From contig CP069419.1 of the NCBI GenBank assembly GCA_017569285.1, positions 2,356,001-2,420,000 of the forward strand: a stretch of 64,000 bases of DNA, given 5' to 3'. Of the stretch, positions 33,043-64,000 are shown piece after piece (the first letter of the stretch is position 1; each line of letters starts with the position of its first letter). This stretch comes from Clostridiales bacterium (GTDB lineage: Bacteria > Bacillota > Clostridia > Christensenellales > Aristaeellaceae). Under the pieces are notes generated by a model. That model saw nothing but the letters and a program-made list of their open reading frames with translations, searched no databases and was not told the origin of the DNA. The translations under genes were made by a program, and so were the position numbers.

Positions 33043-33426
33043 ATGCCGGATACCGGGACCCTGAAGGGCCTGCGCCGGGAGATGACCCGGGAGATGTTTG
33101 AGGAGCTGGCCGCGCTGCAGTGCGAGGTGCCGGAGATCCTCGGATACGTCGGCACCACGGCGGAGAAGCTGGAGAAGTGGTGCCGGAAAACCTACCGCCA
33201 TCCGCTGGATGAAATGCTGCGGATGATCCGCCAGGACGGCCTGGTCGCCATCCGGCGGGCCTCCTTTGACCAGCTGAAGAAAAGCGCCACCGTGATTACC
33301 CAGCAGTACAACCGCTTCCTGCCGCAGGCCGGGGCGGAGGACCGTTCCCAGGCGGACAGCGCGATCCGCGCCTTCACCGCCATGATGAATCCCTCCGGGG
33401 ATACGGTCCGGGAGCTGTTCGAATAG
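33043..33426 (+). CDS. Terminase small subunit (probable)
   Basis: 127 residues, mainly helical, directly upstream of the large terminase. Helical turn region EVPEILGYVGTTAEKLEKWC resembles a DNA-binding domain, and the ADRSQADSAIRAF-like C-terminal helix is typical of small terminases that recognise the packaging start. AAAGGAGG precedes the ATG. First gene of the structural cluster. Identification rests on position plus general features. Confidence 0.68.
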   Translation: MPDTGTLKGLRREMTREMFEELAALQCEVPEILGYVGTTAEKLEKWCRKTYRHPLDEMLRMIRQDGLVAIRRASFDQLKKSATVITQQYNRFLPQAGAEDRSQADSAIRAFTAMMNPSGDTVRELFE

Positions 33427-33434
33427 CGCCCTTT

Positions 33435-34661
33435 GTGCTGCAGCCCCTGTCGCGGAAGCAGAAGCAGGCGATCGCCTGGTGGATGCCCGGATCGGGCCAT
33501 GAGCACGACCGGATCATGCTGGCGGACGGAGCCATCCGCTCCGGTAAGACAATCTCCATGATCCTCTCGTTTCTCCTGTGGAGCCTGTCCTCCTTCCGCG
33601 ACGCGGACTTCATCGTCGCCGGGGTCACCGGCGGCGCGCTGCGCCGCAACGTCCTTTCCCCCATGTTCCGGATGCTGGAAACCTACGGCGTCCCGTATGA
33701 GTGGAAACGCAGCGAGGCGAAGGTCGTGATCGGCACGAACACCTACCACCTGTTCGGCGCCGACAAGGACAACGCCCAGGACAAGCTGCAGGGAATGACC
33801 GCCGCCGGCGCCTACGCCGACGAGGCGGCGCTCTTCCCGCGGTCCTTTGTGGACCAGATGATCGGCCGCTGCTCGGTGGCGGGCAGCAAGATCTTCATGA
33901 ACTGCAACCCGAACGGCGCGTACCATTACATCAAAACCGACTTCATCGACCATGCCGGGGAAATCGGCCTTTTCCGCCTTCATTTCACCATGGATGACAA
34001 TCTGACACTCTCACCCGGGATCAGGGAAAGCTACGCCCGGTCATTCCAGGGCGTTTTTTACCGTCAGTATATCCTGGGGGAATGGGTGAGCGCGGAAGGC
34101 GCCGTGTATCCCATGTGGGATGACGGCGCCAATTCTTTTGAGGATGAAGGTTCCGGGATGTATGAGGGTACGCGCCGTTTCGCGGCCATCGACTATGGCA
34201 CGGTCAATCCGTGTGTGTTCCTGGACGTACGCGACGACGGGCACACCTTCCGGATTGCCAATGAGTATTACTGGGACTCCGCCGCCAGGCAGCGCCAGAA
34301 GACGGACGCGGAATACGCGGACGACCTGCTGGACTTCCTCGGCGGGGATCTGGATACCCTGGTCATTGTCGATCCAAGCGCCGCAAGCTTCAAAACGGAG
34401 CTGCGGAACCGGGGCTTCCGGGTCCGGGACGCGGTGAACAGCGTCCGGGAGGGCATTGCCACCACGGCCGTGCTCATCGGGAACCGCCAGGTCCTTGCCG
34501 AACGGACCCGGTGCCCCAATTTATTCCGCGAAATCCATGACTATGTATGGGACGACCGGGCCCGCCAGCGCGGCGAGGAGCGCCCCCTCAAGGAGCACGA
34601 CCACGCGATGGACGCCCTGCGCTACCTGTGCCATACGCTGACAGACCGTTTCAGGAGGTAA
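33435..34661 (+). CDS. Phage terminase large subunit
   Basis: 408 residues. ATP-driven DNA-packaging motor with nuclease. Motor motifs: DGAIRSGKT (Walker A, about residue 33) and AYADEAALFP (Walker B with catalytic Glu, about residue 127). RNase-H-like nuclease residues: AIDYGTVNP, IVDPSAAS and the closing DHAMDALRYL. All look intact. The GTG at 33435 has no ribosome-binding site; in-frame ATA at 33423, overlapping the small-subunit stop, is a possible alternative start. The stop lies inside a 16-bp direct repeat. Confidence 0.92.
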   Translation: MLQPLSRKQKQAIAWWMPGSGHEHDRIMLADGAIRSGKTISMILSFLLWSLSSFRDADFIVAGVTGGALRRNVLSPMFRMLETYGVPYEWKRSEAKVVIGTNTYHLFGADKDNAQDKLQGMTAAGAYADEAALFPRSFVDQMIGRCSVAGSKIFMNCNPNGAYHYIKTDFIDHAGEIGLFRLHFTMDDNLTLSPGIRESYARSFQGVFYRQYILGEWVSAEGAVYPMWDDGANSFEDEGSGMYEGTRRFAAIDYGTVNPCVFLDVRDDGHTFRIANEYYWDSAARQRQKTDAEYADDLLDFLGGDLDTLVIVDPSAASFKTELRNRGFRVRDAVNSVREGIATTAVLIGNRQVLAERTRCPNLFREIHDYVWDDRARQRGEERPLKEHDHAMDALRYLCHTLTDRFRR

Positions 34662-34719
34662 AAGGGGTTGGAAAAAGAACAAAGTTCTTTTTTCGCTGAT
34701 ATGGACCGTTTCAGGAGGT
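34644..34719. repeat. 16-bp direct repeats flanking a hairpin, terminase/portal junction
   Basis: GACCGTTTCAGGAGGT occurs at 34644-34659 and 34704-34719, 60 bp apart. The first copy encodes the end of the large terminase; the second supplies the portal ribosome-binding site. Between them lies a 9-bp A/T-rich hairpin. Confidence 0.8.
34672..34693 (+). terminator. Terminator-like hairpin between terminase and portal
   Basis: AAAAAGAAC-AAA-GTTCTTTTT followed by T: a symmetrical A/T-rich hairpin that could attenuate readthrough into the portal gene. Confidence 0.45.
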
Positions 34720-34724
34720 GACAA

Positions 34725-35999
34725 ATGAGCCGGAAAAGAAAACACCGCGGGGCAGGGGACGGATACGTCAACCTGCCCGCGCGGCTGGGCGGTGCAAGCA
34801 CGCTGCTTTCCGCCGGGACGTATGAGCGGACGTTCCCGTTCAACCCCGCGCTGCTGACCAGCCTGTACCGGGAGTCCTGGATCGCCAAGCGCATCATCGA
34901 CATGCCGGGCGAGGACATGACCCGGGGCTGGTACACGATGCCGCTGGAGGAGAAGCAGGCGGAGGAGCTGCGGGCACTGGAAACCCGCCACGATATCCGG
35001 CGGGAGATCACCGACGCCATCCGCTGGGCGCGCCTGTACGGCGGCGCCCTTGCCCTGATGGTGATCGACGGCCACGAAGGTTTCCTTTCGGACCCCCTGG
35101 ACCCGGACACGGTGATGCCCGGGTCTTTTTGCGGGCTGCTGGTGCGCGACCGGCTCAGCGTAACGCCCTCGGCGGAGCTGGAGGACGACCTCAACGACCC
35201 GGATTTCGGCTACCCGATGTACTACGACCTGCAGGCGGACACCGGCGCTCCGGGCGGAATGCCCGGCACCCTGCGCGTGCACCATTCCCGGGTGCTGCGC
35301 TTTACCGGGCGGGACCTTCCCCGGGCCGAGGAAGCCGCGGAGCAGTACTGGGGCGCCAGCGAGCTGGAGCATATCTGGGAGGAGCTGCAGAAGCGGAGCG
35401 CGACCAGCGCGAACATCGCGCAGCTGGTGTTCCAGGCGAACATCACCACGCTGCGCATGGGCGACTTCGGCGAAATCCTCGCCATGGGCACCGACCAGCA
35501 GCGCCGCCGGGTGCTGGAAGCCCTGGAGCAGGAGAACGCGCTGCGAACCTCCTTCGGCCTGCAGCTGCTTTCCGCCGGCGACACGATGGAAAACCACCCG
35601 TATTCCTTTGCCGGGCTGAGCCAGATCTATGAGGCTTTCATGCTGGACATGGCCGGCGCGGCAGGCATTCCCGCCACGCGGCTGTTCGGCCGCAGCCCCC
35701 AGGGTATGAATGCTACCGGGGAAGGCGACCTGAAGAACTACTATGAGCTGATCACCGCCATGCAGGAGCGTCACCTGCGCCCCGCCCTGGAAAAACTGTT
35801 TCCCGTGATGGCCATGAGCCTGTGGGGAGCGGTTCCGGAGCGCCCGGACATCACCTTCCCCTCCCTGATGCCCGTTTCCCCGCCGGAGGAGGCGGAGGTG
35901 CAGGCCCGGCAGGCGGAAACGATCACCCGCCTGACCCAGGCGGGACTGATGACCCCGGCCGAGGCCCGTTCCCGTCTCACGGCCCTCGGCATTCTCTGA
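34725..35999 (+). CDS. Phage portal protein (DUF1073-like)
   Basis: 424 residues. Dodecameric ring at the capsid vertex for DNA passage. The opening SLYRESWIAKRIIDMPGEDMTRGW and the region GGALALMVIDG are characteristic of the DUF1073-type portal group, and SRVLRFTGRDLP and TRLFGRSPQGMNATGEGDLKNYYE follow in the expected order. Full length for the group. CAGGAGGTGACAA precedes the ATG. Followed by the DUF2213-like protein, the normal order. Confidence 0.88.
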   Translation: MSRKRKHRGAGDGYVNLPARLGGASTLLSAGTYERTFPFNPALLTSLYRESWIAKRIIDMPGEDMTRGWYTMPLEEKQAEELRALETRHDIRREITDAIRWARLYGGALALMVIDGHEGFLSDPLDPDTVMPGSFCGLLVRDRLSVTPSAELEDDLNDPDFGYPMYYDLQADTGAPGGMPGTLRVHHSRVLRFTGRDLPRAEEAAEQYWGASELEHIWEELQKRSATSANIAQLVFQANITTLRMGDFGEILAMGTDQQRRRVLEALEQENALRTSFGLQLLSAGDTMENHPYSFAGLSQIYEAFMLDMAGAAGIPATRLFGRSPQGMNATGEGDLKNYYELITAMQERHLRPALEKLFPVMAMSLWGAVPERPDITFPSLMPVSPPEEAEVQARQAETITRLTQAGLMTPAEARSRLTALGIL

Positions 36000-36024: not shown

Positions 36025-37353
36025 GTGAATTTGCTGTATTTTGCCGAACGACTGAGCCCGCACATGGCGGAGAGCGCGGAGGGTTACCTGATCTGCCGCG
36101 GGGTGCCGGTGGCCCGCAGCGGCACGCAGATGTACCTGCCCGCCGAGCTCGGCCTGCCGCCGGGCACCGCGCCGGACCCGGTGCCGGTGTACCGGCCGGA
36201 AGGGGAGGTTTTCTCCCCGGCGTGCATGGCCTCCTTTGAGGGCAAGCCCGTGACGGAGGACCACCCGGACCTGCCGGAGGGCGTGAGCGCGGAGAACATC
36301 CGCCTGTACCAGAAAGGCCACGCGCAGAATGTCCGCCGCGGGAAAGGCGCGCAGGGAAACCTGCTGCTGGCCGACCTGGTGATTACCGACCCGGAGACCA
36401 TCCGCCATATCCGGGACGGGAAGCGGGAAATTTCCTGCGGGTACACCTACACCCTGGCAGAGGAAAACGGCCGCTATGTCCAGCGGGATATCCGCGGCAA
36501 CCACATTGCCGTGGTGGACCGCGGGCGCGCGGGATCGCGCGTCCGCATCAACGACTCAGAAAGGAGCATGAAACCCATGAAGAAACCCAACACACCCGAT
36601 ACCCCGGTGCGCCTGCTGGCCCGCATGGCCGCATCCGCCCTGCGGGGCAATGACCTGGAACCGGAGGAACTGCCGGAGGTGGCCAGCCTGCTGGAAACCG
36701 TAGCCGGAATCGCAGAAACCGCCGCTGAGGAAGAAAATGGCGGGGAGCCGGAAATCCGGATCACCCGGACCGAAACGGAAATCCCGGCCCCGGAAGGGGA
36801 GGAACAGCCGGAACAGTCCGTAAATGCGGCTGACACAGATCCGGAAATCATTTCCAGGCTGGACCGGATCATCTCCCTCCTTGAAACGATGGGGACTGTC
36901 CCCAGCGTTTCAGATTCTTCGGATGAAACAGCCGGGACTGTCCCCGATGTTCCACCGGAAGCCGAAAAGGTGGAGGAGGAAATGGAAAACCTGGAGGAGG
37001 CGGTGGCGGAGCTGCTCTCCGCGGAAGAAACGGAAGAGGAAGCGGCTCCCGGAACCGAACCCGGGACGGAAGCCGGGGCCCCGGATGAGAACGAAGAGAG
37101 CGGCTTCCTGTCCGCCTCCGACCGGATGGTCCGCGCCGCCGTGCGGGCGCTGAAGCCGGTGATCGCCCGCCTGCCGGAAAAGGAACGCGCGTCCGCCGCG
37201 GACGCCGCCCTGCGCGCGATGCGCAGCCTCCCGAAAGGGGAGAAGCCCGCACGGAGCACGTATGCCGCGCTGGCCGGGGCGGCCCGGGCGGAGGATCCCG
37301 CGGACCTCGGAAAGCGGATTATCAGCAGCCGGAATATCAACTACCGCAGATAA
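36025..37353 (+). CDS. DUF2213-like capsid maturation protease/scaffold
   Basis: 442 residues. Residues ~1-170 match the DUF2213 type (SAEGYLICRGVPVARSG; CGYTYTLAEENGRYVQRDIR; NHIAVVDRGRAGSRVR), thought to be a head-maturation protease. Residues ~180-370 are acidic and Glu/Pro/Thr-rich, as expected of an internal scaffold that is removed on maturation. AAAGGAG precedes a GTG start; a TTG two codons later would also fit. Position between portal and capsid supports the role. Confidence 0.8.
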   Translation: MNLLYFAERLSPHMAESAEGYLICRGVPVARSGTQMYLPAELGLPPGTAPDPVPVYRPEGEVFSPACMASFEGKPVTEDHPDLPEGVSAENIRLYQKGHAQNVRRGKGAQGNLLLADLVITDPETIRHIRDGKREISCGYTYTLAEENGRYVQRDIRGNHIAVVDRGRAGSRVRINDSERSMKPMKKPNTPDTPVRLLARMAASALRGNDLEPEELPEVASLLETVAGIAETAAEEENGGEPEIRITRTETEIPAPEGEEQPEQSVNAADTDPEIISRLDRIISLLETMGTVPSVSDSSDETAGTVPDVPPEAEKVEEEMENLEEAVAELLSAEETEEEAAPGTEPGTEAGAPDENEESGFLSASDRMVRAAVRALKPVIARLPEKERASAADAALRAMRSLPKGEKPARSTYAALAGAARAEDPADLGKRIISSRNINYRR

Positions 37354-37366
37354 AGGAGGAAGATGA

Positions 37367-37870
37367 ATGGGAAAAGTACTTTCTGAATTCCGGCGCGGCT
37401 GGCCCGGCGCGGTCACCCGCTCCAAAGATGACGTAATCGTCTCCCTGAAAAATGCCGATATGAACCCGATTGCCTTCGGCGCCCCGGTATTCCTGGACGC
37501 CGCGGCCGGCGGCGCGGTGAACTTTGCCGCCGGGGAGACCGCGGCGGAACAGTTTATCGGTTTTGCCGTGCGCGTACCGGACAAGACGCCGGACACGTAT
37601 GCCTCCGGGCAGAACCCGCCGGATACCGCGGGCGCCTGGGCCCCCGGGAATGCGGCGGATATCCTGGTGCGCGGCAGCGTGGCAGTGCCGGTCCAGACCA
37701 CGGGCGCGAAGACCGGGGACAAGGTGTATATCCGCCTTTCCGACAAAAAGCTGGTGACCGCCGCCGGCGAAAGCGGCACCACGGTGCTGCTTCCCAACGT
37801 AACCGTCCGCAACGCCCGGGACAGCAAGGGCTTCTGCGAAGTGACCGTGACCAAACGCAACCTGATCTGA
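37367..37870 (+). CDS. Capsid cement/decoration protein
   Basis: 167 residues, beta-rich, glycine- and alanine-rich, beginning MGKVLSEFRRGWPGAVTRS. A protein of this size and type (structural cement, Gp24-like) lies directly before the DUF2184-type major capsid protein in related phages. AAAGGAGGAAG precedes the ATG. It should coat and stabilise the capsid surface. Identification is by sequence style and order. Confidence 0.7.
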   Translation: MGKVLSEFRRGWPGAVTRSKDDVIVSLKNADMNPIAFGAPVFLDAAAGGAVNFAAGETAAEQFIGFAVRVPDKTPDTYASGQNPPDTAGAWAPGNAADILVRGSVAVPVQTTGAKTGDKVYIRLSDKKLVTAAGESGTTVLLPNVTVRNARDSKGFCEVTVTKRNLI

Positions 37871-37887: not shown

Positions 37888-38856
37888 TTGATCCGTAATC
37901 CTTCCGCCATGCGCCGGCTGGCTGCCGGCGACTCCTACACCTTCCTGATGAAGGAACTGGAAAAGGTGGACGACGTGATCCTCGAGCCCCTGACCGGGAC
38001 GGACTGGCCGCGCGACATGCCGGTGATCACCGGCGGCGGCCTGCTGGAATCCATCGCGTCCATCGACGTGACCTATGCCTCCTCCGGCGGGGACGATGAC
38101 AATCTCTTTTTCGAGGCGGCCAACGATATCCCCGTCATCCAGGCGGACATGTCCAAATCCATCGCGCGGACGTTCAACTTCGCCGAGTACATGGCCTTCT
38201 CCGTGCTGGAAAAGGAAAAGATGGTGCAGGTGGGCCGGGACCCGGAGACCTTCCTCAACAAGGGCATCCGCCTGCACTGCGACAAGGTGATCGACCGCAA
38301 CGTCTACCGCGGCTTCAGCAAGGTTTCCTCCACGGGCTTGGTGAACAACCCGTCCGTGCTCCGTTCGTCCGCCGCGCCGCATACGCCCGGCGGCAGCGAC
38401 ACCCAGTGGAGCGGCAAGACCGCGGATGAGATCCTGGCCGATATCAACACGGCGATCTCCGCCGTGTGGGCGGCCAACGACTGCTCGGGCGACGCGCTGC
38501 CGAACCATATCCTGATTCCCGTGGAGCAGTTCGGCCAGCTGGTGACCCGCAAGGTGTCCGACGACTCCGAGCGCTCCATACTCACCTATGTGCTGGAGAA
38601 CAACCTGGCGGTCCAGCAGGGCAGCGACCTGGTGATCTCCCCCTGCAAATGGTGCAGCGGTGCGGGCACCGGCGGCACGGACCGCATGGTTGTTTACGCC
38701 AACCGCGTGGACCGCATCTGCTTCAACCTTACCCAGCCCCTGCGCCGCATGGAGACCGAGTATGCCGACATGCGCATCAAGATCCCGTACTTCGCGCAGT
38801 TTTCCGAGGTCCGTTTCCTGTATCCGTCCACGGTCCGGTACATGGACGCGATATAA
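37888..38856 (+). CDS. Major capsid protein (DUF2184-like)
   Basis: 322 residues of the DUF2184 type of HK97-fold capsid proteins: FLMKELEKVDDVILEPLTGT at the start, NFAEYMAFSVLEKEKMVQVG in the middle and a C-terminal PLRRMETEYADMRIKIPYFA. Starts with TTG at 37888 behind AAAGGAG with 9-nt spacing. Intact length. After it the phage gene order is interrupted by a minus-strand secreted-protein gene. Confidence 0.87.
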   Translation: MIRNPSAMRRLAAGDSYTFLMKELEKVDDVILEPLTGTDWPRDMPVITGGGLLESIASIDVTYASSGGDDDNLFFEAANDIPVIQADMSKSIARTFNFAEYMAFSVLEKEKMVQVGRDPETFLNKGIRLHCDKVIDRNVYRGFSKVSSTGLVNNPSVLRSSAAPHTPGGSDTQWSGKTADEILADINTAISAVWAANDCSGDALPNHILIPVEQFGQLVTRKVSDDSERSILTYVLENNLAVQQGSDLVISPCKWCSGAGTGGTDRMVVYANRVDRICFNLTQPLRRMETEYADMRIKIPYFAQFSEVRFLYPSTVRYMDAI

Positions 38857-38915: not shown

Positions 38916-41378
38916 TTATCTGCTTCCGTTGTCGGCCAGGACGATGATTGCGAATGAGCGGGACTGCAGCTTTCTCACGAGCGACGCGTCCACCTCGGCA
39001 CGCAGCCGGTTTCCGATCAGCCTGGTTGGTTTTTTCAGCACTTCCCAATGTTCTCCGGCATCATCACGGTATACCAGGATCATAATCAGATCAAGGTTCA
39101 GAGGGAATTCCTGACTGCCGGTATAATCCAGGCTGACCCGGTCTGCAAGGTCAGAAAATTTTTCCAGTCTCCAGACCTTTGCCTCGATCAGTTTTAAGGC
39201 ATAAGGCGGAATATTCGGTAAAACCGAATCGGGTTCTGTCTGGAAATAGACTCCGCTGTCATCGCTGAAAATCTGATGAATGACAGAATGCTCCAGTTCC
39301 TGTTCTTCTTCAAGGAATACCGGCTGGATGATCCGGAGTACCGATTTTTTCGGCGCGATGACGATTTCAGCATCCGGCTTGCCGGTGCCTTCTTCTTTCG
39401 TGTCCGGAACCGGTACCGGTTCCGGCAGGGCAGGCAGTTGATTATAACGGTACTCCAGCTCCAAACCGCAGACTGTGCAGCAGATTATCGTTTCCTCGAA
39501 GCCGGCTTTGCCGACCTGAGGTTCCTCCCGGGCTGTTACGACCGGCTCTCCCGGGGTATGGCCCGGCGCTGCGATTTCCCTGTAGGTGGTGTAGCTGCAC
39601 CGGGAGCAGGTATCATAGGCATCCCAGCCGGCTTCGGTGCAGGTGGCTGCCTTTCCCTCATGATGTGTGAGGTCATGACCCAGCGCCGGGATTTCCTTGT
39701 AGGTGGTGTAGTCGCAGCCTTCACGTTTGCAGGTATCGTATGCTTCCCAGCCGGCTTCGGTGCAGGTGGCAGCTTTTCCCTCGTGATGTGTGAGGTCATG
39801 GCCCAGCCTGGCCTGCATGATCAGCAGGGTGGTGTAATTGCATCCCTCGCGCTTGCAGGTGTCGTAAGCCGGCCAGCCGTCTTCGGTGCAGGTGGCGGGC
39901 TTTGCAGCATGGTGTTCGATATCATGTCCAAGCGCCGGGATTTCCTTGAAGGTGGAGTAATCGCAGCGGGAGCAGGAGTCGTAGGCGTCCCAGCCAGCTT
40001 CGGTGCAGGTGGCTGCCTTCGCGTCATGCTTTACCAGGTCATGGCCCAGCGCCGGGATTTCCTTGTAGGTGGAATAATCGCAGCGGGAGCAGGTGTCGTA
40101 GGCATCCCAGCCGGGTTCGGTACAGGTGGCAGCTCTCGCTTCGTGGTGTACGAGGTCATGACCCAGCTTTGCCTGCTTTACCAGCAGGGTGGTGTAATCG
40201 CAGCCCTCGCGCTTGCAGGTGTCATAAGCCGGCCAGCCCTCTTCGGTGCAGGTGGCAGGCTTTGCGTCGTGGTGTTCCAGGTCGTGGCCCAGCTTATCAA
40301 TTTCCTCGTAGGTGGAGTAATCGCAGCCCTCGCGTTTGCAGGTGTCGTAGGCATCCCAGCCGATCTCTGTACAGGTGGCGGGCTTTGCGTCATGATGTTC
40401 CAGGTCATGGTTCGTCAGATCGAAGTTCCCGTATTCCAGACCGCAGAGGTCGCATACGGCTTTGGCGACACAGGTGGCTTTTCCGCCTTCATGGGTGCAT
40501 TTCCGTTCGCAGACTGTGCATATGCCATTTTCATATTGATGGCCTTCTGATTCGAAAGCTCCGCACATAGTGCAGTTGCGCTGATGGCTGTACGGATCCA
40601 CGGACAGCCATTCGCCCCATTCATGGGGTGTGGTTTCCGTTTCCCCGCATCCTTCAACGGAGCATACATGCTTATGGGTTTTTCCGTCTTCCTGGGGAAC
40701 CCAGGGTTTCCACTGATGGCCTTTGGCCTCGATGATCCAGGAATCCTCTTCAATCGTGGTTACCCCGTCTGAGTCGCCGAAGAAAGCCCCGCAATCCGCA
40801 CAGGACCAGTATTCATTATTTCCGTCTTCGGTGCAGGTGGCAGGTTTTGCCTCATGATATTGGATGTCATGGAGTGCCGGATTTTTATCCCCGTATTTCT
40901 GGCCGCAGAATTCGCATACGGCTTCGGATATGCAGCTGGCGGAACCCCCGGAACACTTCATGATGACTTCCGCACCGCAGACGGTACAGGTACCCTGATG
41001 GGTATCGGTCCCTTCAATCCGGGTGCAGTTTTTTAAGAAATGGGGTCCTTCATTTTTCTTGTATGTACATTTGCTACAATACTGATAATGATTCCCGTTT
41101 TCTTTGTCAATGCACCATTCCCATGTACAAATACCAGCCTCATTATAAGAGTCGGTGCCCAGAAAATATATGAATTCATAACAGCAGGAAAAGCACTTGA
41201 AATCTGTTATAACATCATCTTCAGGTGTTGTTACAACATCAAGAGTTATATTGGTTGAACCGCAGCAAGGGCAGGTACCATCTACGACAGGACAATCCGC
41301 TGATGCCGGCACAATCATAATCCCAAGCACCAAAACAAGAACCAACAATACCGGGATAATTCTCCGCAGTTTCTCCAT
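38916..41378 (-). CDS. Secreted cysteine/histidine-rich repeat protein
   Basis: 820 residues. A signal peptide (IIPVLLVLVLVLGIMIVPASA) is followed by Cys-rich zinc-ribbon-like segments (CPCCG, CEFCG, CADCG, CTVCE). Then come seven near-identical ~37-42-residue repeats of form LGHDL-x-HH-xA-x-ATCTExGW-xAYDTC-xxCDYTT, plus a degenerate first copy. The end is a proline/glutamate-rich spacer and a beta domain. The His/Cys pattern suggests metal-stabilised surface repeats, as in Clostridial cell-surface proteins; ligand unknown. ATG 41378 has GGAGG 9 nt upstream. It has its own promoter and terminator and lies between capsid and connector genes. Confidence 0.78.
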   Translation of the reverse strand: MEKLRRIIPVLLVLVLVLGIMIVPASADCPVVDGTCPCCGSTNITLDVVTTPEDDVITDFKCFSCCYEFIYFLGTDSYNEAGICTWEWCIDKENGNHYQYCSKCTYKKNEGPHFLKNCTRIEGTDTHQGTCTVCGAEVIMKCSGGSASCISEAVCEFCGQKYGDKNPALHDIQYHEAKPATCTEDGNNEYWSCADCGAFFGDSDGVTTIEEDSWIIEAKGHQWKPWVPQEDGKTHKHVCSVEGCGETETTPHEWGEWLSVDPYSHQRNCTMCGAFESEGHQYENGICTVCERKCTHEGGKATCVAKAVCDLCGLEYGNFDLTNHDLEHHDAKPATCTEIGWDAYDTCKREGCDYSTYEEIDKLGHDLEHHDAKPATCTEEGWPAYDTCKREGCDYTTLLVKQAKLGHDLVHHEARAATCTEPGWDAYDTCSRCDYSTYKEIPALGHDLVKHDAKAATCTEAGWDAYDSCSRCDYSTFKEIPALGHDIEHHAAKPATCTEDGWPAYDTCKREGCNYTTLLIMQARLGHDLTHHEGKAATCTEAGWEAYDTCKREGCDYTTYKEIPALGHDLTHHEGKAATCTEAGWDAYDTCSRCSYTTYREIAAPGHTPGEPVVTAREEPQVGKAGFEETIICCTVCGLELEYRYNQLPALPEPVPVPDTKEEGTGKPDAEIVIAPKKSVLRIIQPVFLEEEQELEHSVIHQIFSDDSGVYFQTEPDSVLPNIPPYALKLIEAKVWRLEKFSDLADRVSLDYTGSQEFPLNLDLIMILVYRDDAGEHWEVLKKPTRLIGNRLRAEVDASLVRKLQSRSFAIIVLADNGSR

Positions 41379-41424
41379 GATCTCCATCCTCCATATGTAA
41401 CCGGGCTTTTTTCTCCATGTAAAA

Positions 41425-41482: not shown

Positions 41483-41830
41483 ATGATGATTCTTTCCCGT
41501 GTATGTGCCCAGTTTCACAACGCGAAAGGCGAAACCATGTTCACGGTGACGCCCGCCCTGCGCAACCTCTTTACGGAGGCCCCGGAGGAGATCCGGGAGG
41601 ACCCGCTGTTCCGGCTGCTGATCCGGGACGGGTCCCTGGAAGCCGCCGTGACCGAGAAACGGAAGAAACTGCTGGAAAACGACCCCGCGCAGGGAACGGA
41701 CGCTTCCGGTAAAAAGGCGGAGGCGGAGAAGCCGGATGCCCCGGTCCGCAAAGGCCGGGGAAAGGCTGCCCCGGGAGCGGAAGTTCCCGCTGTGGAGGTT
41801 CCTGCCGCGGAGAACGGTGAGGCAAAATGA
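41483..41830 (+). CDS. Small phage head-associated protein
   Basis: 115 residues. N-terminal ~70 residues compact (MFTVTPALRNLFTEAPEEI), C-terminal part Lys/Ala/Pro/Glu-rich and probably disordered. AAAGGAGGCAATCCACC before the ATG. It overlaps the next gene by 4 nt, so it belongs to the connector operon. No definite family; the position after the capsid fits a minor head protein. Confidence 0.55.
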   Translation: MMILSRVCAQFHNAKGETMFTVTPALRNLFTEAPEEIREDPLFRLLIRDGSLEAAVTEKRKKLLENDPAQGTDASGKKAEAEKPDAPVRKGRGKAAPGAEVPAVEVPAAENGEAK

Positions 41831-42722: not shown

Positions 42723-42733
42723 AAGGAGAACCC

Positions 42734-54267: not shown

Positions 54268-54274
54268 GCACGCA

Positions 54275-54991: not shown

Positions 54992-55017
54992 TTCTTCTGT
55001 GCTCCTTGCAGATGGCC

Positions 55018-55048
55018 GCCGGGCCCGGGCAGCAGCTGCCCGGGCCCG
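55018..55048 (-). terminator. GC hairpin after the secreted hypothetical gene
   Basis: A long GC-rich inverted repeat (GGGCCCGGGCAGC with GCTGCCCGGGCCC) just past the minus-strand gene at 55068, without a T-run; terminator function is uncertain. Confidence 0.45.
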
Positions 55049-55067
55049 GATGGTTCATGGAATATAA

Positions 55068-56159
55068 TCAGTCTTCAATTTCGCACCAGGCGTACGCTTC
55101 GATGGTGGTGATTTCGACGCCCTTTTCGTTGAGCATCTTCACAAAGCGGTCGTCCAGGTTCTGCTTCATGATGAGGGAGCTGCCGGAGGTGAGCTCATGG
55201 CGGTACAGGGAGGTTTCCTCCACCAGCCAGGGCGTGCCTTCCGCATCCTCAAGGCAGAAGATTACCTGGGGAGTAGCGGGGTTTTCGGTCTGATTGGTGA
55301 CCGTGGTCTGCATCCAGGAAGTGGCGTAATCGCCTTCACCGAAGGTGAAATCGGAATCTGCGGCGGTGAGTGCGAAATCCTTCCGGTAGGGATTCGGGGA
55401 GACCTCCAGGGCCCGTTCGCAGGTGACTTCGATATTTTCGGGAATGTCCGCTTCCATGGAAACGAAGGTGGTTTCACCGGGCTCGAGGTAATAGGAACCG
55501 CGGTTGGAAAGGTAGGTGGCGCTTCCCACCAGGCTGCCTTCCGCATCCTTTACCTGCAGGCTGCCGCTGCGGATATACACGGGGTTCTGGTTCATGTTGA
55601 TGACCTTGGCGAGCCATACGGCGCGGTAGCCGTTGTAGCTCTCGACGACGTAATGGTTTTCCGAGATGATATCCACGGTATTGCCGGCGGCGGCAGAGGC
55701 CTGCGCTTCAGCGGCGGCCTTTTCCGCCATGAGCCGCTGGTATTCCGCATAGAAGTTCTTCCCGACGGTTTCCACGTCTTCCTTGGTCATGCCTTCCGGC
55801 AGCTCGTATTCCTCCCCGCTGAAATAGGCGGAGATGATCTCGTTGGGTACCCGGCCTTCCTCCCGGATGACCGGGAACATCAGCTCAGGGCTGAAAAGCA
55901 TGGTTCCGTCCCAGGCGAAGTCGAGCGCCTCCCCCTCGAGGGAGATGGTGACGGTTTCGCCTTCCGCGGACCATTCGCCGTCCACTTCGCCTGTGCCGAT
56001 GAGGTTGGCATGCACGGTTCCGTCCTCATTGAGCTGGAAAGATCCCAGGTCGACTTCGGCCAGGACCACATGCCACAGGCCGCTGAAATCCTCGGCCAGG
56101 ACGGGAACGACAGAGAGCAGCAGGCACAGGGCCAGCAGCAGCGCAAAAATCTTCTTCAT
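55068..56159 (-). CDS. Secreted hypothetical protein with lipocalin-like start
   Basis: 363 residues. Signal peptide MKKIFALLLALCLLLSVVPVLAE. Residues ~25-90 (GLWHVVLAEVDLGSFQLNED; ISLEGEALDFAWDGTMLF) resemble a small beta-barrel of the lipocalin-like type found in Clostridial secreted proteins. The second half is an unassigned beta domain. ATG 56159 has GAAAGGAG before it; extensive open sequence further upstream has no site and runs over the tape-measure gene. Cellular gene between chaperone and tape measure. Confidence 0.72.
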   Translation of the reverse strand: MKKIFALLLALCLLLSVVPVLAEDFSGLWHVVLAEVDLGSFQLNEDGTVHANLIGTGEVDGEWSAEGETVTISLEGEALDFAWDGTMLFSPELMFPVIREEGRVPNEIISAYFSGEEYELPEGMTKEDVETVGKNFYAEYQRLMAEKAAAEAQASAAAGNTVDIISENHYVVESYNGYRAVWLAKVINMNQNPVYIRSGSLQVKDAEGSLVGSATYLSNRGSYYLEPGETTFVSMEADIPENIEVTCERALEVSPNPYRKDFALTAADSDFTFGEGDYATSWMQTTVTNQTENPATPQVIFCLEDAEGTPWLVEETSLYRHELTSGSSLIMKQNLDDRFVKMLNEKGVEITTIEAYAWCEIED

Positions 56160-56265: not shown

Positions 56266-57012
56266 ATGCCCCAGGAATTCCTGGCATCCTTTGCCGTGGA
56301 CATCGACGAGGGCGGGGTCAACCGCCTGGAACGGATCCTGGAAAACAACCGGGAGCTGGCAGGAAAGCTCGCGGACGCCTTTGACGCAGCCAGGAATGCC
56401 ATGGAAGGATTCATCCGCCCGATGGCGGAGGACCTGGAAGGGATCCTGCCCTTCCCGCAGCCGGAGGCGGCGGGGGAAACCCCCGGCATCGGCGGGACTT
56501 TCCCGGTGGGCCTGGACTTTGCGGAAGCCGGAAAGCAGCTGGAGACCTTCGTCACCGGCGCGAAAAAGCAGCTGCGCCTTTCCGCGGACGGATCGGGCAT
56601 CGTTTCGGCGGTGTCCGCGGCCATCTCCCGGGCCCGGTCTATGCTGGCGGGGGCGGGGCTGACGCTGCCGGTGCGGGTGGAAACATATGGGGCGGGGATT
56701 CCCGCCGGCGCGGCGCCGGCGGCATATGCCCCGGCCGCAGCCCCGGAAACGCCCCCGGCCGGAACAATCCAAACAGGCGGGTCCCCGGCCGCCCCGGCGG
56801 AAAGCGCCGCGCTGTTTGCCGGCATCCCCGCGCTGCTTTCCGGCGCCGCGGACGCCGCGGCCCCGCGGGTGACGCAGAACACGACCACCCGCAACGTTTC
56901 CGCCCCGGTGAACATCCGGGTGGAAGCCACCTCCGCGGACCCGGAGGCCGTGGGCCGTTCCATCTACAACACCGCGGAGCAGCACCTGCTCCGCACCCTG
57001 CAGGAGGCGTAA
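56266..57012 (+). CDS. Miniature tail tape-measure protein
   Basis: 248 residues. The N-terminal ASFAVDIDEGGVNRLERIL and helical run, an Ala/Pro/Gly-rich centre and the C-terminal VNIRVEATSADPEAVGRSIYNTAEQHLLRTLQEA match the two ends of tape-measure proteins of related phages. The middle is far shorter than usual (normally 500-1500 residues). Tape measures set tail length, so this predicts a very short tail. AAAAAGGAGGAAAAACAT precedes the ATG. It follows two cellular genes. Confidence 0.72.
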   Translation: MPQEFLASFAVDIDEGGVNRLERILENNRELAGKLADAFDAARNAMEGFIRPMAEDLEGILPFPQPEAAGETPGIGGTFPVGLDFAEAGKQLETFVTGAKKQLRLSADGSGIVSAVSAAISRARSMLAGAGLTLPVRVETYGAGIPAGAAPAAYAPAAAPETPPAGTIQTGGSPAAPAESAALFAGIPALLSGAADAAAPRVTQNTTTRNVSAPVNIRVEATSADPEAVGRSIYNTAEQHLLRTLQEA

Positions 57013-57013
57013 C

Positions 57014-57643
57014 ATGGCCCGTTCCGGAGCATATATCATCATCAAGGGGCAGGGAACGAGCCTGCACTTTACCGGGGTGACGGAGATCTCCCACCAGATC
57101 CGCCTGAAGATTTTCGACAAGGCGGATATCACAGAGGCGGCCTCCTTTGTGAACGGCGCGAAGAACGAGCCGGACCGGGTGACCCTTTCCGTGATCGAGA
57201 CGGACGCGGCGCACGAAGCGGCCGGCTGGTCCGCCCGGATGCTGGAAATCCTGTATACGGTGAAGCGGGACCGGATGCTGTGCGAGGTGGTCACCCCGCA
57301 GAAGGCATACAGCGATATGCTGCTTTCCGAAATCTCCGCGGTGCACAACGCCGAAATCCCGGACGGCTGGAGCGGGGAGCTGACCTTTACGGAATACATC
57401 CCGCTGGCAGTCCTGGGCGAAACGAAGGCGGACGACAATGCCTCCACCCCGCGGAACACCGGCTCCGCCGCCCCGCCGGAAAAGCTGGAGGCCGCTGTGG
57501 TGATGAGCGCCGTCACCGTCGGCACCGCCGCATCCGCCGGGATCATCACCGGGTATGCCGCCCTGTCCGCCGGCAGCACGCTGGAGCGGAAACTGGCTTC
57601 CGCGGGCGTGCTGGAGGCCGGGAAGGTACTGTACGTGATCTGA
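57014..57643 (+). CDS. Baseplate-proximal tail protein
   Basis: 209 residues. N-terminal ~125 residues (MARSGAYIIIKGQGTSLHFTGVTEIS; VIETDAAHEAAGWSARM) form a beta domain like the tail proteins that follow the tape measure in short contractile phages; the C-terminal part is Ala-rich with a hydrophobic stretch. CAGGAGGCG precedes the ATG, only 1 nt after the tape-measure stop. Exact role (tube initiator or Dit-like) uncertain. Confidence 0.62.
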   Translation: MARSGAYIIIKGQGTSLHFTGVTEISHQIRLKIFDKADITEAASFVNGAKNEPDRVTLSVIETDAAHEAAGWSARMLEILYTVKRDRMLCEVVTPQKAYSDMLLSEISAVHNAEIPDGWSGELTFTEYIPLAVLGETKADDNASTPRNTGSAAPPEKLEAAVVMSAVTVGTAASAGIITGYAALSAGSTLERKLASAGVLEAGKVLYVI

Positions 57644-57659
57644 AAAGGAGAAGCGAAAA

Positions 57660-58025
57660 ATGACCAAGCAGCTTTCGTATTCCGTGCTGCCGCTGACGAA
57701 TGACCCGTACCAGGTGTTTACCACTGACGTGGCACCGGATGGCACCCCGCTCCACGCGCGGATCGAAATCCGGTATCTGGCGGCGGCCGGACGGTGGGTG
57801 GTTTCCATCTTTGACCACGCCGCCGCCACTTTGCTGGCAAACCAGGTTCCCATGGTGGTCAGCAGCGGATTCCCGCTGGACCTGCTGTATCCCTTCCGCT
57901 ACCTGCGGGGAGGAAAGGGCATCGGAAGCATGTTCCTGCTGCGCGGCGGGGACACCGGCGCCCGGGACCCTGGGCAGGATAACCTGACCGAGTATACGCT
58001 CCTGTATGGGTCGCTTTTAGGGTGA
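57660..58025 (+). CDS. Baseplate plug protein (Pam3 plug-like)
   Basis: 121 residues. PYQVFTTDVAPDGTPLHARIEIRYLAAAGRWVVSIFD and a C-terminal LLYGSLLG are typical of the small baseplate-plug family known from the short contractile phage Pam3 and Clostridial relatives (DUF6983-type). AAAAGGAGAAGCG precedes the ATG. Followed by an inserted minus-strand glucuronoyl esterase-like gene. Confidence 0.7.
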   Translation: MTKQLSYSVLPLTNDPYQVFTTDVAPDGTPLHARIEIRYLAAAGRWVVSIFDHAAATLLANQVPMVVSSGFPLDLLYPFRYLRGGKGIGSMFLLRGGDTGARDPGQDNLTEYTLLYGSLLG

Positions 58026-58088: not shown

Positions 58089-60647
58089 TTATTTCCCCCA
58101 TGTGCGGTAATACCACCCGTCACGGCCGTCTGTGCCGGACGTTCCTCCAGTGATGGTATTGAAACCGCCGTAGTAGGTGTCAAAGGGGCTTGCGCCGCCG
58201 GAAACCGGCAGCAGGAAGGGATCGGTGAGCAGGGCGTCGGTTTCCGGGCTCATCGCCTCGCCGAAGAAGAAGGCGCGCATGTACTCCGCGGTGCGCTGCC
58301 GCTGGGCGTCGTCCGTGCCGTGGGGATCGCCGTCCTGCACGGAACGGTAGTTGAACTTCACGAGGGAATCCGCGTCCAGGCCCAGGTTCCGGTAGACGGA
58401 TTTGGCAATCTCCAGGCCCAGGGCGTCAGCCTCGGCGCCGTCATTGTAGTCATTGACGGTGTTGACCAGCAGGATGGCCCGGGGCGCAAGGGTGGCCACC
58501 AGGTCGCTCTGGTCATAGGGCAGGCGGGCGCCGTAGCCCCAGGCGCCGGGCAGCCGCTTATAGAAATTGCGCGGGGTGAGGAACTTGCGGAACACTTCGG
58601 TTTCGCGCACGCGGTTGTGCCGGATGCTGTTGCCCAGGGTTTCTGTGCCCCAGGATACCTGCTGCGCGGGGGCGGCGACGCCTTCCGCCGGGGCAAAGGG
58701 CGTGCCGGTCCAGTCGTACTCATGGCCGGTGTACACATACCGCCAGGGGGAAGGGCCGGAAGCGCCGGCCGCGCCGGGGATGCACAGGTCGATCCGCTCG
58801 TCGAATACGGCGGCCACGAAGGCGTACTTTCCGTTGATCGAGAATCCCGTGACGGCGAGGTTTTCCGGGTCCGCCGCGGCGGCGATTTCATCCGCGTATT
58901 CGATTCCGCAGCCCTCCAGCAGGGACAGGCTGTCGATGACCCGGCCGGCCGCCCAGGCGGCGGCCATCTCGCTGCTGACCTCCTTCAGGGCGCCTTCGCC
59001 GTTGCGCTCATAGGGATACAGCTCGTAGAACGCGCCAGAGCGCTGGCCCCAGGCGTATTCATTGGTGCGGACGTCGCCGCCGCTGCCGGCGGGCGTCTCG
59101 ATGACCACGAACCCGGCGTCGCGGTAAACTGCGCTGTCACCGTCATAGGAAAGGAGCACGGGGTTCTTCTGCCCCTGCCGCCCCGCGGCGGCGAGCTGCT
59201 CTTCCGTGGGCAGGTAAACGGTGTACTCCAGGGACGCGGTTTTTCCATTGTCCGTCACCGCGATGGCCACCACGTCGGTGGGGCAGTCCACGGTGACGTC
59301 CATGGGCCAGAAGCCCCAGAACAGGATGGTCCGGGTGTCGCCCGGGTTGAAGTGCGTAACGGACGTGATTTCCACCTTCTCCGGCGCGGCGGGCATGCAG
59401 CCGTATTCATAGAACTGCGCCAGGTCCAGGATCTCCGCGCGGCGTTCCGCCCAGTCCGCGGCGGTTTCCACCGTGCGGTCCCCGGCGAAGAAGCGGTAAG
59501 GATCCGGAAGCGTCATGAATTCCGGCAGGTCCGCGGGATCCGGATATTTCGTGTCCGCCCAGCGCAGGCCGTCCAGGGAGACGATGAGCTCATCCGCGGC
59601 GGCGTCCACGGCCACCTGGTCGGTGCTGCCTTCGTCCAGCAGCGCCTGGGCCGCGGCGCGGGCCGCGTCCAGCCGGGCCTGGGTTTCCGCTGTGTAGACA
59701 TCCTTCGCGAAGGCCACGGAATCCAGGAAACGGATGGTGTTGGAAATCCGCCAGGAGCTGAAGGCGAAGGCGGCGGAGCCGTCCCACCCGGCGAGGGTGA
59801 GGGTGCCCCAGTCCAGGTTCCGGGGATCCGAATCGTTGATGGAATCATACAGGGAATCGTTGCGGTGGCTCCACCACACGCGGTTTTCCACGGTGGAGGT
59901 GATCACCGGCTGGCCCCAGGCATCCGTGCCGGGGACCTTTTCCTCCTCGGTGGGCGTCCGCGCGTCGTTGATGACCACTTCCAGGCCCAGGCGGAAGTCC
60001 GCGGGGTCCATCAGGTCCTCAATATGCAGGGCCGCCTCCACGCAGTAGCCCTTCTCTGTGAGCTTTCCGGCGGCCGCCGCCAGGCGGCCGGTGTACTCCG
60101 GCGCCTCCGGGTCCGCGATGACCGAGCTCTGGGACGCGATGTTCCCGCTGCGGAAGAAGTACAGCTGCCCGTCCGCCCCGACGGTGAACGTTCCCACGGT
60201 GTCCGTGCCGAAGTTCACCTTGTCGTTCCACAGGTCGATGCCGAAGGTGACGCTGTCCGCCTGCGGCGGGATGGCGGGGTTGCTGCCCACGGGGCCGGCC
60301 TGCGCCGGCTCCAGGGAAACGGATGCGTCCTCCACCTCCACCAGCAGGTAGAGCATGGGGCCGTCCCACGCCGCGTACAGCGTGCCGGACGCGGCGGGCG
60401 CCTCACTGCCGTTGACCGGCTTCACCTGGGCGACGGCCTGGGCCTCGCAGGCGCCGTACGCCGCGTCGCGCTCGCCGTCCACCAGGACCGCATCCTGGGT
60501 GAAGGCGGCGGAGATGGCGCCCGGCAGGTCCACGGCGGGATCAAAACCGCCGGTGTATGGAATGATGTTGCTTTCGTTCTCCGCGGCGGCCGCGCCCAGC
60601 GCGCACAGCAGGCACACCGCCAGCAAAATGGAAACCAGCCTCCTCAT
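58089..60647 (-). CDS. Secreted glucuronoyl-esterase-like (CE15-like) protein
   Basis: 852 residues. Signal peptide MRRLVSILLAVCLLCALGAAAAE; residues ~40-290 a CBM9-like sugar-binding domain (VRTP-like core: TLYAAWDGPMLYLLVEVED; VNFGTDTVGTFTV); ~325-370 a FIVAR-like helical pair; ~400-800 an alpha/beta hydrolase with VTGFSINGKYAFVAAVFDERI, matching the catalytic Ser region GCSRxGK of CE15, and a late DPHGTD His. CE15 enzymes cut ester links between lignin and glucuronoxylan. ATG 60647 has AGGAGGGTTTTCC before it. Host plant-fibre gene within the baseplate module. Confidence 0.8.
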   Translation of the reverse strand: MRRLVSILLAVCLLCALGAAAAENESNIIPYTGGFDPAVDLPGAISAAFTQDAVLVDGERDAAYGACEAQAVAQVKPVNGSEAPAASGTLYAAWDGPMLYLLVEVEDASVSLEPAQAGPVGSNPAIPPQADSVTFGIDLWNDKVNFGTDTVGTFTVGADGQLYFFRSGNIASQSSVIADPEAPEYTGRLAAAAGKLTEKGYCVEAALHIEDLMDPADFRLGLEVVINDARTPTEEEKVPGTDAWGQPVITSTVENRVWWSHRNDSLYDSINDSDPRNLDWGTLTLAGWDGSAAFAFSSWRISNTIRFLDSVAFAKDVYTAETQARLDAARAAAQALLDEGSTDQVAVDAAADELIVSLDGLRWADTKYPDPADLPEFMTLPDPYRFFAGDRTVETAADWAERRAEILDLAQFYEYGCMPAAPEKVEITSVTHFNPGDTRTILFWGFWPMDVTVDCPTDVVAIAVTDNGKTASLEYTVYLPTEEQLAAAGRQGQKNPVLLSYDGDSAVYRDAGFVVIETPAGSGGDVRTNEYAWGQRSGAFYELYPYERNGEGALKEVSSEMAAAWAAGRVIDSLSLLEGCGIEYADEIAAAADPENLAVTGFSINGKYAFVAAVFDERIDLCIPGAAGASGPSPWRYVYTGHEYDWTGTPFAPAEGVAAPAQQVSWGTETLGNSIRHNRVRETEVFRKFLTPRNFYKRLPGAWGYGARLPYDQSDLVATLAPRAILLVNTVNDYNDGAEADALGLEIAKSVYRNLGLDADSLVKFNYRSVQDGDPHGTDDAQRQRTAEYMRAFFFGEAMSPETDALLTDPFLLPVSGGASPFDTYYGGFNTITGGTSGTDGRDGWYYRTWGK

Positions 60648-62412: not shown

Positions 62413-62416
62413 CGTA

Positions 62417-62779
62417 ATGCGCATGCGCCCCACCGACGGCACCGGCGACATCCTGCCGGTGCGAAGCACTGCTGCCCTCCTCACCGGCGCAGGAGCGGCC
62501 GCCGAGCTGGTCCGCTGCCGCCTGAACCTCCTGCCGGGGGAATGGTGGGAGAACCCGGACCACGGCTGCGCCGTATTCCGCATGCTGCGGGAGGAACGGC
62601 TGACCGCAGAAGGCAAAACCGCCCTGGCCGCCTACCTCACCGCGACCATCCGCGCCACGCCCGGCGTCCGTGCCGTGGACCGCGTCTCCGCCGCCGTCAC
62701 CGGAAGGCAGTTCACGTATTCCTGTGAAATCCGCACGGATGATGGCACCGCGGATGTTTCCTTTTCCCTCTCAACCTGA
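62417..62779 (+). CDS. Baseplate wedge protein (DUF2634/gp25-like)
   Basis: 120 residues. RSTAALLTGAGAAAELVRCRLNLLPGEWWENPDHG and the closing beta strands match the small wedge protein (gp25/XkdS/W-like) placed directly before gpJ. GGAGGTG lies 7 nt before the ATG, at the end of the structured element. The stop overlaps the next ATG. Confidence 0.78.
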   Translation: MRMRPTDGTGDILPVRSTAALLTGAGAAAELVRCRLNLLPGEWWENPDHGCAVFRMLREERLTAEGKTALAAYLTATIRATPGVRAVDRVSAAVTGRQFTYSCEIRTDDGTADVSFSLST

Positions 62780-63717
62780 TGAAAGGAGAATGCTCCATCG
62801 CTTATTTCGCACCCTACATCGACGATACCGGCCTCCACATGCCCACCTACGCGGAGCGGCTGGAAGCCCTGACCGAAGCCTATTACGGCATCTTCGGCAT
62901 CGACGCGGAGCTCTCCGAAGCCGTGCCGGACTACCAGCTGCTGTCCGTGATTGCCCGGGCCCTGGACGACCTGTCCCAGCTGGTGCTGGAGGCATACAAC
63001 AGCCGCAATCCGCTGTACGCCTCCGGGCAGGCGCTGGACCTGCTGCTGCCCCTGTACGGCCTGCGGAGGCAGGAAGGGGAGACGGACGCCCATGCCCGCG
63101 GCCGGATCCTCCCAGCCCTGGCGGGAAACGGGAACGCCTCGGCGGAAAGCATCGCCGCGGCGATCCTTCAGGTGCCGGACGTGCTCCAGGCCCAGGTGCA
63201 CGAAAACGACACCGACCAGACCGACGGGAAAGGAATCCCGCCCCACAGCATCTGCTGCGTGGTGGACGCCGGGAAGAAGGCGGACGTCGCGGACACCATC
63301 TTCCGCAAAAAGGCGCCGGGCATCGGGACGCACGGAACCACCGCCGTTTCCGTAACCGACGGAAACGGCGTTTCCCATACCGTGCGCTTTTCCCGCCCGG
63401 CGCAGTCTCCCGTGAACGTCTACATCGACATTACGGCCTATGCGGGATATGACCCTGAAACGACGGACGCCGTCGGGCGGGCGGCGGAGGACTACCTGAG
63501 AAGCCTCCGGATCGGCCAGTCCCTGGTGGTGCCCCGGCTGTACGGGGCCTGCTACGCCGCGGCGGGAGGGCAGGCGTCCGCCTTCGCCATCTCGGATATC
63601 CGGGCGGACTGCCCGCTCATACCCGAAATCACCCGGGAACTGGTGCCGGCAGGCTGGAACACCCGGCTGTATACCGCCTACCCGGACCGGGTGTTCATCA
63701 CCGTGACGGACGCGTAA
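62779..63717 (+). CDS. Baseplate J-like protein
   Basis: 312 residues from the ATG at 62779; wedge component that links the baseplate to fibres. YFAPYIDDTGLHMPTYAERL at the start and the body with DYQLLSVIARALDDL and LYASGQALDLLLPLYGL are typical of gpJ. The ATG overlaps the previous stop but has no ribosome-binding site; AAAGGAG lies inside the frame, 8 nt before an ATC at 62797 that would give the usual short start (M)AYFAPYID. An AUC start is therefore quite possible. Confidence 0.88.
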   Translation: MKGECSIAYFAPYIDDTGLHMPTYAERLEALTEAYYGIFGIDAELSEAVPDYQLLSVIARALDDLSQLVLEAYNSRNPLYASGQALDLLLPLYGLRRQEGETDAHARGRILPALAGNGNASAESIAAAILQVPDVLQAQVHENDTDQTDGKGIPPHSICCVVDAGKKADVADTIFRKKAPGIGTHGTTAVSVTDGNGVSHTVRFSRPAQSPVNVYIDITAYAGYDPETTDAVGRAAEDYLRSLRIGQSLVVPRLYGACYAAAGGQASAFAISDIRADCPLIPEITRELVPAGWNTRLYTAYPDRVFITVTDA

Positions 63718-63739
63718 GGAGGGGAGAACCATCGACTAC

Positions 63740-64000
63740 ATGACCCTGTTTCCCGCGTATACCCGCCGGAAGCCCCGCTTCTGCGCCCTGGTGCAGGCCA
63801 TCCTCTCCCAGGCGCAGGACCTGGAAACCGCCATCCGGGCAATCCCCGCGGCCTTCTCCCCGGAGGGGGCCGGGGGCGCCCGGCTGGACGCCCTAGGCAG
63901 CGCCTCCGGTCTGCCAAGGCCGGAAGGCATGGCGGACGAGGACTACCGGCAGTACCTCCTGGCGAAGTTCACCCTCTTCACCTGGGACGGCACCAACGGG
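63740..64000 (+). CDS. gpI-like/DUF2612-like tail protein, cut by window edge
   Basis: At least 87 residues are visible (MTLFPAYTRRKPRFCALVQA; LDALGSASGLPRPEGMADEDYRQYLLAKF), typical of the DUF2612/gpI protein that follows gpJ. No stop before the right edge. AGGAGGGGAG is 13 nt before the ATG but only 4 nt before an in-frame ATC at 63731, so an AUC start is again conceivable. Confidence 0.8.
   Translation, partial: MTLFPAYTRRKPRFCALVQAILSQAQDLETAIRAIPAAFSPEGAGGARLDALGSASGLPRPEGMADEDYRQYLLAKFTLFTWDGTNG

Follow-up and report, generated by a model that had tools for sequence, protein, structure and literature searches.

Several described systems of phage origin come close to the locus studied here. 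PBSX-like defective prophages form contractile particles under host control from a compact cluster that harbors head and lysis genes, its own regulator and fibres; headless tailocins and extracellular contractile injection systems have no head or packaging genes; and the morons of temperate phages are self-contained genes lying between structural genes, often in antisense orientation. In this study, we investigated a cluster of contractile-phage late genes that begins at position 33043 of a 64,000-nucleotide window (the whole stretch of DNA that was analysed, bases 2356001-2420000 of contig 1 of the 3.27-Mb two-contig source genome of a Clostridiales bacterium, labelled G000). The cluster has the contractile particle with head and lysis genes in common with PBSX, whose regulator and fibres were not recognised in it, and it is no headless tailocin or injection system, since terminase, portal, cement and major capsid protein (MCP) genes are all present. 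Unlike morons, cellular genes among its structural genes, such as HU and a flippase, sit at the same junction in three species, and no phage early genes accompany them. Its structural families and sheath fold resemble those of E217, Pam3, KPP10 and XM1, which are, however, myophages, and the MCP of the Agathobaculum phage AB434P2, whose 44-kb record includes tRNAs and many additional genes, is 40% identical.

Gene transfer agents (GTAs), viriforms such as RcGTA, BaGTA and BhGTA, are characterized in the portion of PMC9662315 considered here by caudoviricete-derived proteins, packaging of mostly random host DNA, full endogenisation, an own genome that is not fully packageable, mostly vertical inheritance with co-diversification, and delivery of DNA. 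As in those systems, the cluster consists of chromosomal phage-derived late genes without replication genes, which diverge with the host, but it differs in its contractile-sheath set and in the host genes at many of its junctions, the RcGTA genes being spread over five loci in the same portion (PMC9662315), and it is known from its genes alone. FpGTA of Faecalibacterium is likewise a genus-wide set of late and lysis genes in gut Clostridia; according to the part of PMC12946183 drawn on here it is podovirus-like and its genes occupy two compact operons, 10.5 and 5.5 kb long, whereas the present cluster is one interleaved locus of 33-43 kb (32.6-43.0 kb in four genomes) with sheath and tube. The same part reports packaged host DNA for Christensenellaceae, a family to which this genus may or may not belong, and names no cluster there (PMC12946183). 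No comparable interleaved cluster was found in searches of one open-access library that holds no preprints.

The comparative data indicate that the locus is a domesticated late-gene cluster under selection. We read it, with a probability of roughly 0.62, as encoding a domesticated, chromosome-inherited, GTA-like contractile DNA-packaging particle within one genus of gut and rumen Clostridia. Three GTA features were found, namely caudoviricete-derived proteins, full endogenisation in the host genome (save for an integrase in the draft G010), and mostly vertical inheritance with host co-diversification (judged by RecA only, and with phage allele exchange also seen); the other three need experiments, and the particle is therefore called GTA-like and not a GTA.

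Conservation, selection and inheritance in the genus

Of the 45 genus genomes, 29 gave matches to the large terminase (TerL) of the cluster, all without stops; 28 of the 29 have one copy, and G061 harbors two further matches at 45% identity. Among the 13 genomes at least 90% complete, 10 contain it; of the remaining three, G018 has structural genes running off the contig end, and G012 and G068 match another terminase only. The MCP was detected in 25 of 37 genus genomes and in none of 24 others of the order. When 200 genomes of the order were searched with the MCP family profile, 10 matches resulted, of which the three strong ones all belong to the genus and the seven weak ones to other families; ten genomes of the same family and other genera, among those listed, gave no match. 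The weak matches (L216-L222) come from seven genomes, six of them in one family, and possibly represent another phage or particle lineage.

With RecA as the only host marker, TerL and RecA trees from 24 of the 29 genomes had 11 of 21 splits in common at the DNA level and 8 of 21 at the protein level, and their distances correlated at 0.45 (DNA) and 0.31 (protein), with none of 2000 permutations as high. Seven cluster genes compared with RecA gave Mantel r values of 0.53-0.80 over 9-18 genomes each, and none of 1000 permutations was as high (one for gpJ). Gene order remains intact across species whose TerL diverges by 15-25%. In the four near-closed genomes, several genes of the source surroundings are found in rearranged order no more than about 100 kb from the cluster, and the upstream neighbors of G064 and G066 are common to G023, G036 and G002. 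One flanking gene tested for each of the compact clusters in G019, G061, G024 and G009 was cellular in every case (flotillin, polysaccharide epimerase, C-C lyase, sialate esterase). Inheritance thus seems mostly vertical, with some exchange of alleles with phages.

No tyrosine integrase lay within 300 kb of the cluster in the four near-closed genomes, the nearest being at about 305 kb in the source genome, 375 kb in G002 and more than 700 kb in G023 and G036. The absence of a lysis gene noted in the preliminary description is an effect of the window edge, as endolysin and holin genes lie just past it. Recombinases of PF07508 were more than 590 kb away in G000, G002 and G023 and absent from G036, in a search directed at this one family. 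Family searches recognised no early genes in the examined clusters, so the linked integrase and early or replication region of an intact prophage is missing, and an intact active prophage at this locus, sought in close relatives, was not found.

In the comparison of G023 with G036, the median ratio of nonsynonymous to synonymous substitution (dN/dS) came to 0.136 over 23 phage genes, 0.116 over 28 compared inserts (one of them a spurious pair) and 0.082 over 128 flanking genes. Low values belong to the MCP (0.006), TerL (0.017), tube (0) and endolysin (0.061), and high ones to the tail assembly chaperone (TAC, 0.48), gp25 (0.37) and hub (0.34), indicating that head genes are tightly kept and tail-tip genes more loosely. 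By this measure the phage genes are under purifying selection.

Interrupted junctions and the origin of the inserts

Junctions were counted in 15 clusters with the cluster TerL or, for G018, of its lineage, five of which are cut by contig ends; related clusters in this sample are not independent. The gene caller was home-made, and the genes labelled as tape measure in G061, G018 and G003 are only fragments. Other genes were noticed at 73 of 275 phage-phage junctions, and 113 of the 138 inserted genes are antisense, a count excluding 13 genes of a capsid-splitting element in G010, while only 35-48% of flanking genes in four genomes lie on that strand. Six plus-strand 'inserts' are probably phage genes, namely a 72-aa gene lying between lysin and holin (four genomes) and a 53-58-aa frame behind the TAC (two); by subtraction, the interrupted junctions fall to 67 of 275, and the antisense share of the inserts becomes 113 of 132. 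The clusters of G024, G019, G018 and G027 have no insert.

TerS/TerL (0/13), TerL/portal (0/14), DUF2213/cement (0/14), cement/MCP (0/14) and Dit/plug (0/8) were never interrupted, whereas gene 41483/DUF4054 (7/13), terminator/sheath (5/11) and sheath/tube (5/12) often were. Between TAC and the tape measure protein (TMP), 7 of 11 junctions were interrupted as called, or 5 of 11 without two small frames resembling part of the TAC. The gene caller overlooked the xxxxx_N (xN) gene, which tblastn finds, in G023, G036 and G002, so hub/xN is interrupted there despite its counted 0/7. In the examined clusters inserts lie between and not within genes, except for a recombinase element splitting the capsid gene. 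Genes for a flippase, HU, a Na/Ca exchanger, a phosphoesterase and an extracytoplasmic function (ECF) sigma factor occupy the same junctions in G023, G036 and G002, and none of the source-genome inserts is found at the same place in these three; the SH3 insert has a 33% relative at a different junction. Since interleaving recurs across the genus, it is not due to chance or to an assembly fault.

A secreted BspA-type leucine-rich-repeat protein (L031:18338-19783; homologues in G003, G010, G036, G064 and G066; PF13306 in G023) lies on the sense strand at 41483/DUF4054 in six genomes of distant lineages, and may for this reason belong to the cluster itself instead of being a chance insert. The TAC-TMP-Dit block has shifted behind gpJ in L042, L070 and L072 (G018, G019 and a relative), the order elsewhere being mostly the usual one. 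As an operon control, close co-directional pairs of the source genome were compared: against G023, 8 of 15 phage pairs were separated and 7 adjacent, whereas 6 of 7 host pairs were adjacent; against G036, separated pairs were 8/15 for phage and 0/7 for host genes, and against G002, with a weaker contrast, 7/15 and 1/4. G002 against G023 gave no difference (phage 2/9, host 4/20), so that, with this host sample, a special tolerance of the phage genes is no more than a possibility. Several candidates were put aside during this count. The gpJ genes of G018 and G009, which had looked split, are each called as one gene (392 and 399 aa); G012 and G013, at first taken as the same cluster (then 163 inserts, 124 antisense), were dropped as they carry the other terminase; G016:C32 has another terminase type as well; and the metagenome-assembled genome (MAG) CAMVEB (L065, L068, L069) gave no match to the cluster TerL.

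Host genes have moved relative to the cluster, as the HU case shows: the clusters of G002, G023 and G036 contain HU, in G001 it shares a contig with the cluster, and its 85% orthologue in the source genome is about 1.5 Mb from the cluster. The asparaginase insert of the source has an 81% orthologue in G064, on a contig other than the cluster's, and the protein encoded at 55068 has its best relatives in G023, G036 and G002, at a distance of 10-21 kb upstream of the cluster. Recombination scars were also observed. The source genome retains a 57-nt remnant of the 3' end of a second sheath gene (46076-46132, plus strand, 82% to 50923-50978) and a 110-nt direct repeat (78%) ahead of both sheath and tube; G064 harbors a 61-aa sheath fragment, G036 a tandem copy of neck1 together with its insert, and locus L069 two tubes. 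Taken together, remnant, repeats, fragments and duplicates suggest insertion and replacement through duplication and homologous recombination.

With the late operon in pieces, each downstream piece must presumably have its own promoter, perhaps supplied by the divergent promoter region that an antisense neighbor brought along. The preliminary description gave several inserts their own promoter and terminator. Terminator-like hairpins are moderately more frequent than in shuffled sequence (30 against 17.8, standard deviation (sd) 4.9; 23 against 13.9, sd 4.2), several of them at phage/insert boundaries, and promoter-like sites are in excess in the second half (9 against 4.0) with no clear excess in the first (9 against 6.3). 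A shared promoter motif upstream of phage units, looked for in four genomes by eye and by repeat counts, yielded AT-rich short repeats only. The AATTCTGAATT-type repeat is denser in the cluster than in the flanks of G023, G036 and G002, occurs in these flanks too, and is absent from G000.

Gene content of the source locus

The phage part comprises 22 genes, all on the plus strand with open frames, from the small terminase to gpI; as the preliminary description had it, the structural set is ordered, and most members match known families. The first gene (33043..33426, 127 aa) is a candidate small terminase by position, conserved among 16 aligned sequences. In its AlphaFold model, an N-terminal domain of three helices is accompanied by one long helix; a fold search with this model found nothing at E 0.001 or better, and a profile search against solved structures was likewise empty. 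Then follow TerL (33435..34661; PF03237, PF17289, phrog_2), the portal (34725..35999; PF06381, E 1.9e-102), a DUF2213 protein (36025..37353; PF09979), which from its position we take to be the prohead protease or scaffold, the capsid cement protein (37367..37870; PF22758) and the MCP (37888..38856; PF09950; alternative start 37909 possible). The head completion and neck block (41483..43682) holds gene 41483, DUF4054, neck1, phrog_939 and a terminator-like protein, with family matches for all except gene 41483, that of the terminator-like protein being slightly below the cut-off.

The tail sheath (49865..50980, 371 aa; PF11863, phrog_205) has a predicted model that fits contractile sheaths, with 42 matches to solved structures at E 0.001 or better, which comprise phage (Pam3 among them), AFP and R-type sheaths, and with low confidence in its C-terminal part. 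Tail tube and TAC (53126..54268; PF11681, PF21822, phrog_280) come next, with a second reading frame behind the TAC noticed by eye (54110-54268), and then a short TMP (248 aa, from position alone), a Dit-like protein and the plug, the latter two by family (56266..58025). The baseplate genes (hub, xN, wedge, gpJ-like and gpI) start at 60871 and reach the window end at 64000; they are named by family, except the hub. Inverted repeats (61668-61777 and 62232-62340, 78% complementary) stand on either side of the xN gene. Family searches gave no match for the small terminase, gene 41483, the tape measure and the hub, whose names are positional, and recognised no tail-fibre gene among the cluster proteins.

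Contrary to the earlier impression that the set stops at the window edge, gpI extends to 64150, and in window numbering an endolysin with NlpC/P60 and PG_binding domains (64215-65063), a gene at 65070 and a holin (65383-65649; PF04531) follow past the window end, making the late module complete from terminase to lysis. Directly behind the holin lie an AbiEii-type nucleotidyltransferase gene and its upstream partner (L051:1814-3516; 66-67.5 kb in window numbering). Scanning the window for tRNA genes and Rfam families gave no hits.

As described earlier, cellular-type genes split five junctions; they number 11, of which 10 are on the minus strand. The first insert is a secreted protein with internal repeats (38916..41387, minus; alternative start 41378 possible), and the close relative G015 has a shorter homologue in the same position and also shares the left flank. 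The second block (43737..49581) carries SH3 (minus), DUF218 (minus), PG_binding (plus), 47641 (minus) and asparaginase (minus) genes, the third (51118..52978, minus) an EamA transporter and a 4Fe-4S membrane protein, and the fourth (54275..56159, minus) a TrkA_C (RCK-type) protein and a 363-aa secreted protein (55068); the fifth insert is a CE15-type esterase with CBM9 (58089..60647, minus; PF22244, PF06452). Family searches thus agree with the identities first proposed for the SH3, PG_binding, asparaginase, EamA, 4Fe-4S, RCK-type and CE15-type proteins, while the supposed surface repeat protein (38916), like 47641 and 55068, had no match.

The GTA-like reading and its rivals

The preliminary description had proposed a domesticated particle with host genes at permissive junctions and structural frames kept open by selection. 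Conserved order, dN/dS, the presence or absence of inserts and co-divergence with RecA bear this out, and the comparisons of synteny, dN/dS and inserts run in relatives were all supportive. On the GTA-like reading, the host would make the particles, the retained terminase would load host DNA, endolysin and holin would release them, and the DNA would reach kin in the manner of a gene transfer agent.

Several observations weigh against it. No particle, packaged DNA or transfer has been observed here, and 16 of 45 genus genomes, many of them incomplete, gave no TerL match. The protein-level correlation of TerL with RecA is modest (r 0.31), and the phage genes are less constrained than flanking genes (0.136 against 0.082), with tail-tip genes and the TAC at 0.3-0.48. 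In the draft G010, the contig of the cluster also encodes a tyrosine integrase, about 26 kb ahead of the small terminase gene, the sole such case among 13 genomes searched. The family searches that failed to recognise a tail-fibre gene count here too. The modelled small terminase candidate retains a DNA-binding-like domain, unlike reports for some GTAs; a loss of this domain was looked for in the AlphaFold model and not found.

Moreover, at least six lineages carry an inserted element that interrupts the capsid gene, which is split at about codon 103 in G001, G004, G010, G011, G016, the MAG locus L076 and the IMG/VR loci L088 and L089 (halves in L021, L022, L023, L024, L028, L076, L088 and L089). 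In G010 (L046-L047), about 21 kb separate the halves and contain two tandem genes that are recombinase-like by their sequence; L088 has a different element end with similar genes, giving at least two element ends overall, and in G004 and G016 an MCP half sits at a contig edge. Particles in those lineages would need excision or a second capsid gene, or would not form. An element at a fixed MCP codon is possibly a reversible switch, or a mere hot spot.

Phage alleles also speak against purely vertical inheritance, as the IMG/VR contigs L083, L084 and L085, which carry a different terminase, fall among the chromosomal clusters in five gene trees. One of these, V242 (L083; L223-L224), harbors VapE, other early-type genes and a terminase of the other type (TerL'), and its structural proteins are 56-88% identical to the nearest of four genomes, reaching 88% to the G002/G023 clade. 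Structural alleles thus move between phages and clusters, the phages either feeding the cluster or taking genes from it.

Among the alternatives, an unlikely one that survives best is a domesticated weapon, a PBSX-like headed bacteriocin that kills relatives and packages DNA incidentally. Head, contractile tail and lysis content would serve it equally well, and the faster evolution of baseplate and tail genes relative to head genes is that expected of target-contacting parts; however, constraint is strongest on the MCP and terminase, which a device made purely for killing would not require, and family searches recognised no receptor-binding or immunity gene in the cluster.

Quite improbable is an ordinary phage lineage with many moron-type genes that repeatedly re-enters genomes. 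TerL' does behave in this manner: its 41 matches, four of them with a stop, are spread over 15 of the 45 genus genomes, and a single genome holds as many as 10; such multi-copy matches indicate ordinary prophages, unlike the single-copy cluster. V242 has non-phage genes between portal and DUF2213 beside its related structural genes, and the TerL'-linked cluster of G013 is also interleaved, with phosphatidylserine decarboxylase, NUDIX and LysM genes between structural genes. The cluster TerL is nevertheless single-copy and correlated with RecA, its neighborhood is common across species, HU and the 55068 protein are host genes located elsewhere in relatives, and the source genome gave no match to TerL'. 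A slowly decaying prophage remnant whose genes are mostly still open by chance is very improbable, for low dN/dS, intact order at 15-25% TerL divergence and inserts that avoid genes in the examined clusters contradict it, although the short portal and split sheath calls of G012 (TerL' type), the element-split capsids, the sheath remnant of the source and the sheath fragment of G064 would suit it.

Returning to the GTA-like reading, a fuller version, which we consider somewhat unlikely as a whole, is that a contractile GTA is dissolving into the chromosome while still working. Mostly antisense host genes would break it into small units served by scattered host promoters, its own DNA traffic may import the inserts, and the serine-recombinase capsid element may switch production reversibly in some lineages.

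If it works, the cluster would represent a genus-wide contractile-tailed gene-transfer particle in gut Clostridia. Its members range from compact to strongly interleaved and offer a natural series on how a phage operon becomes chromosomal, and this series lets one ask which junctions tolerate insertion and how assembly is coordinated without a single late transcript.

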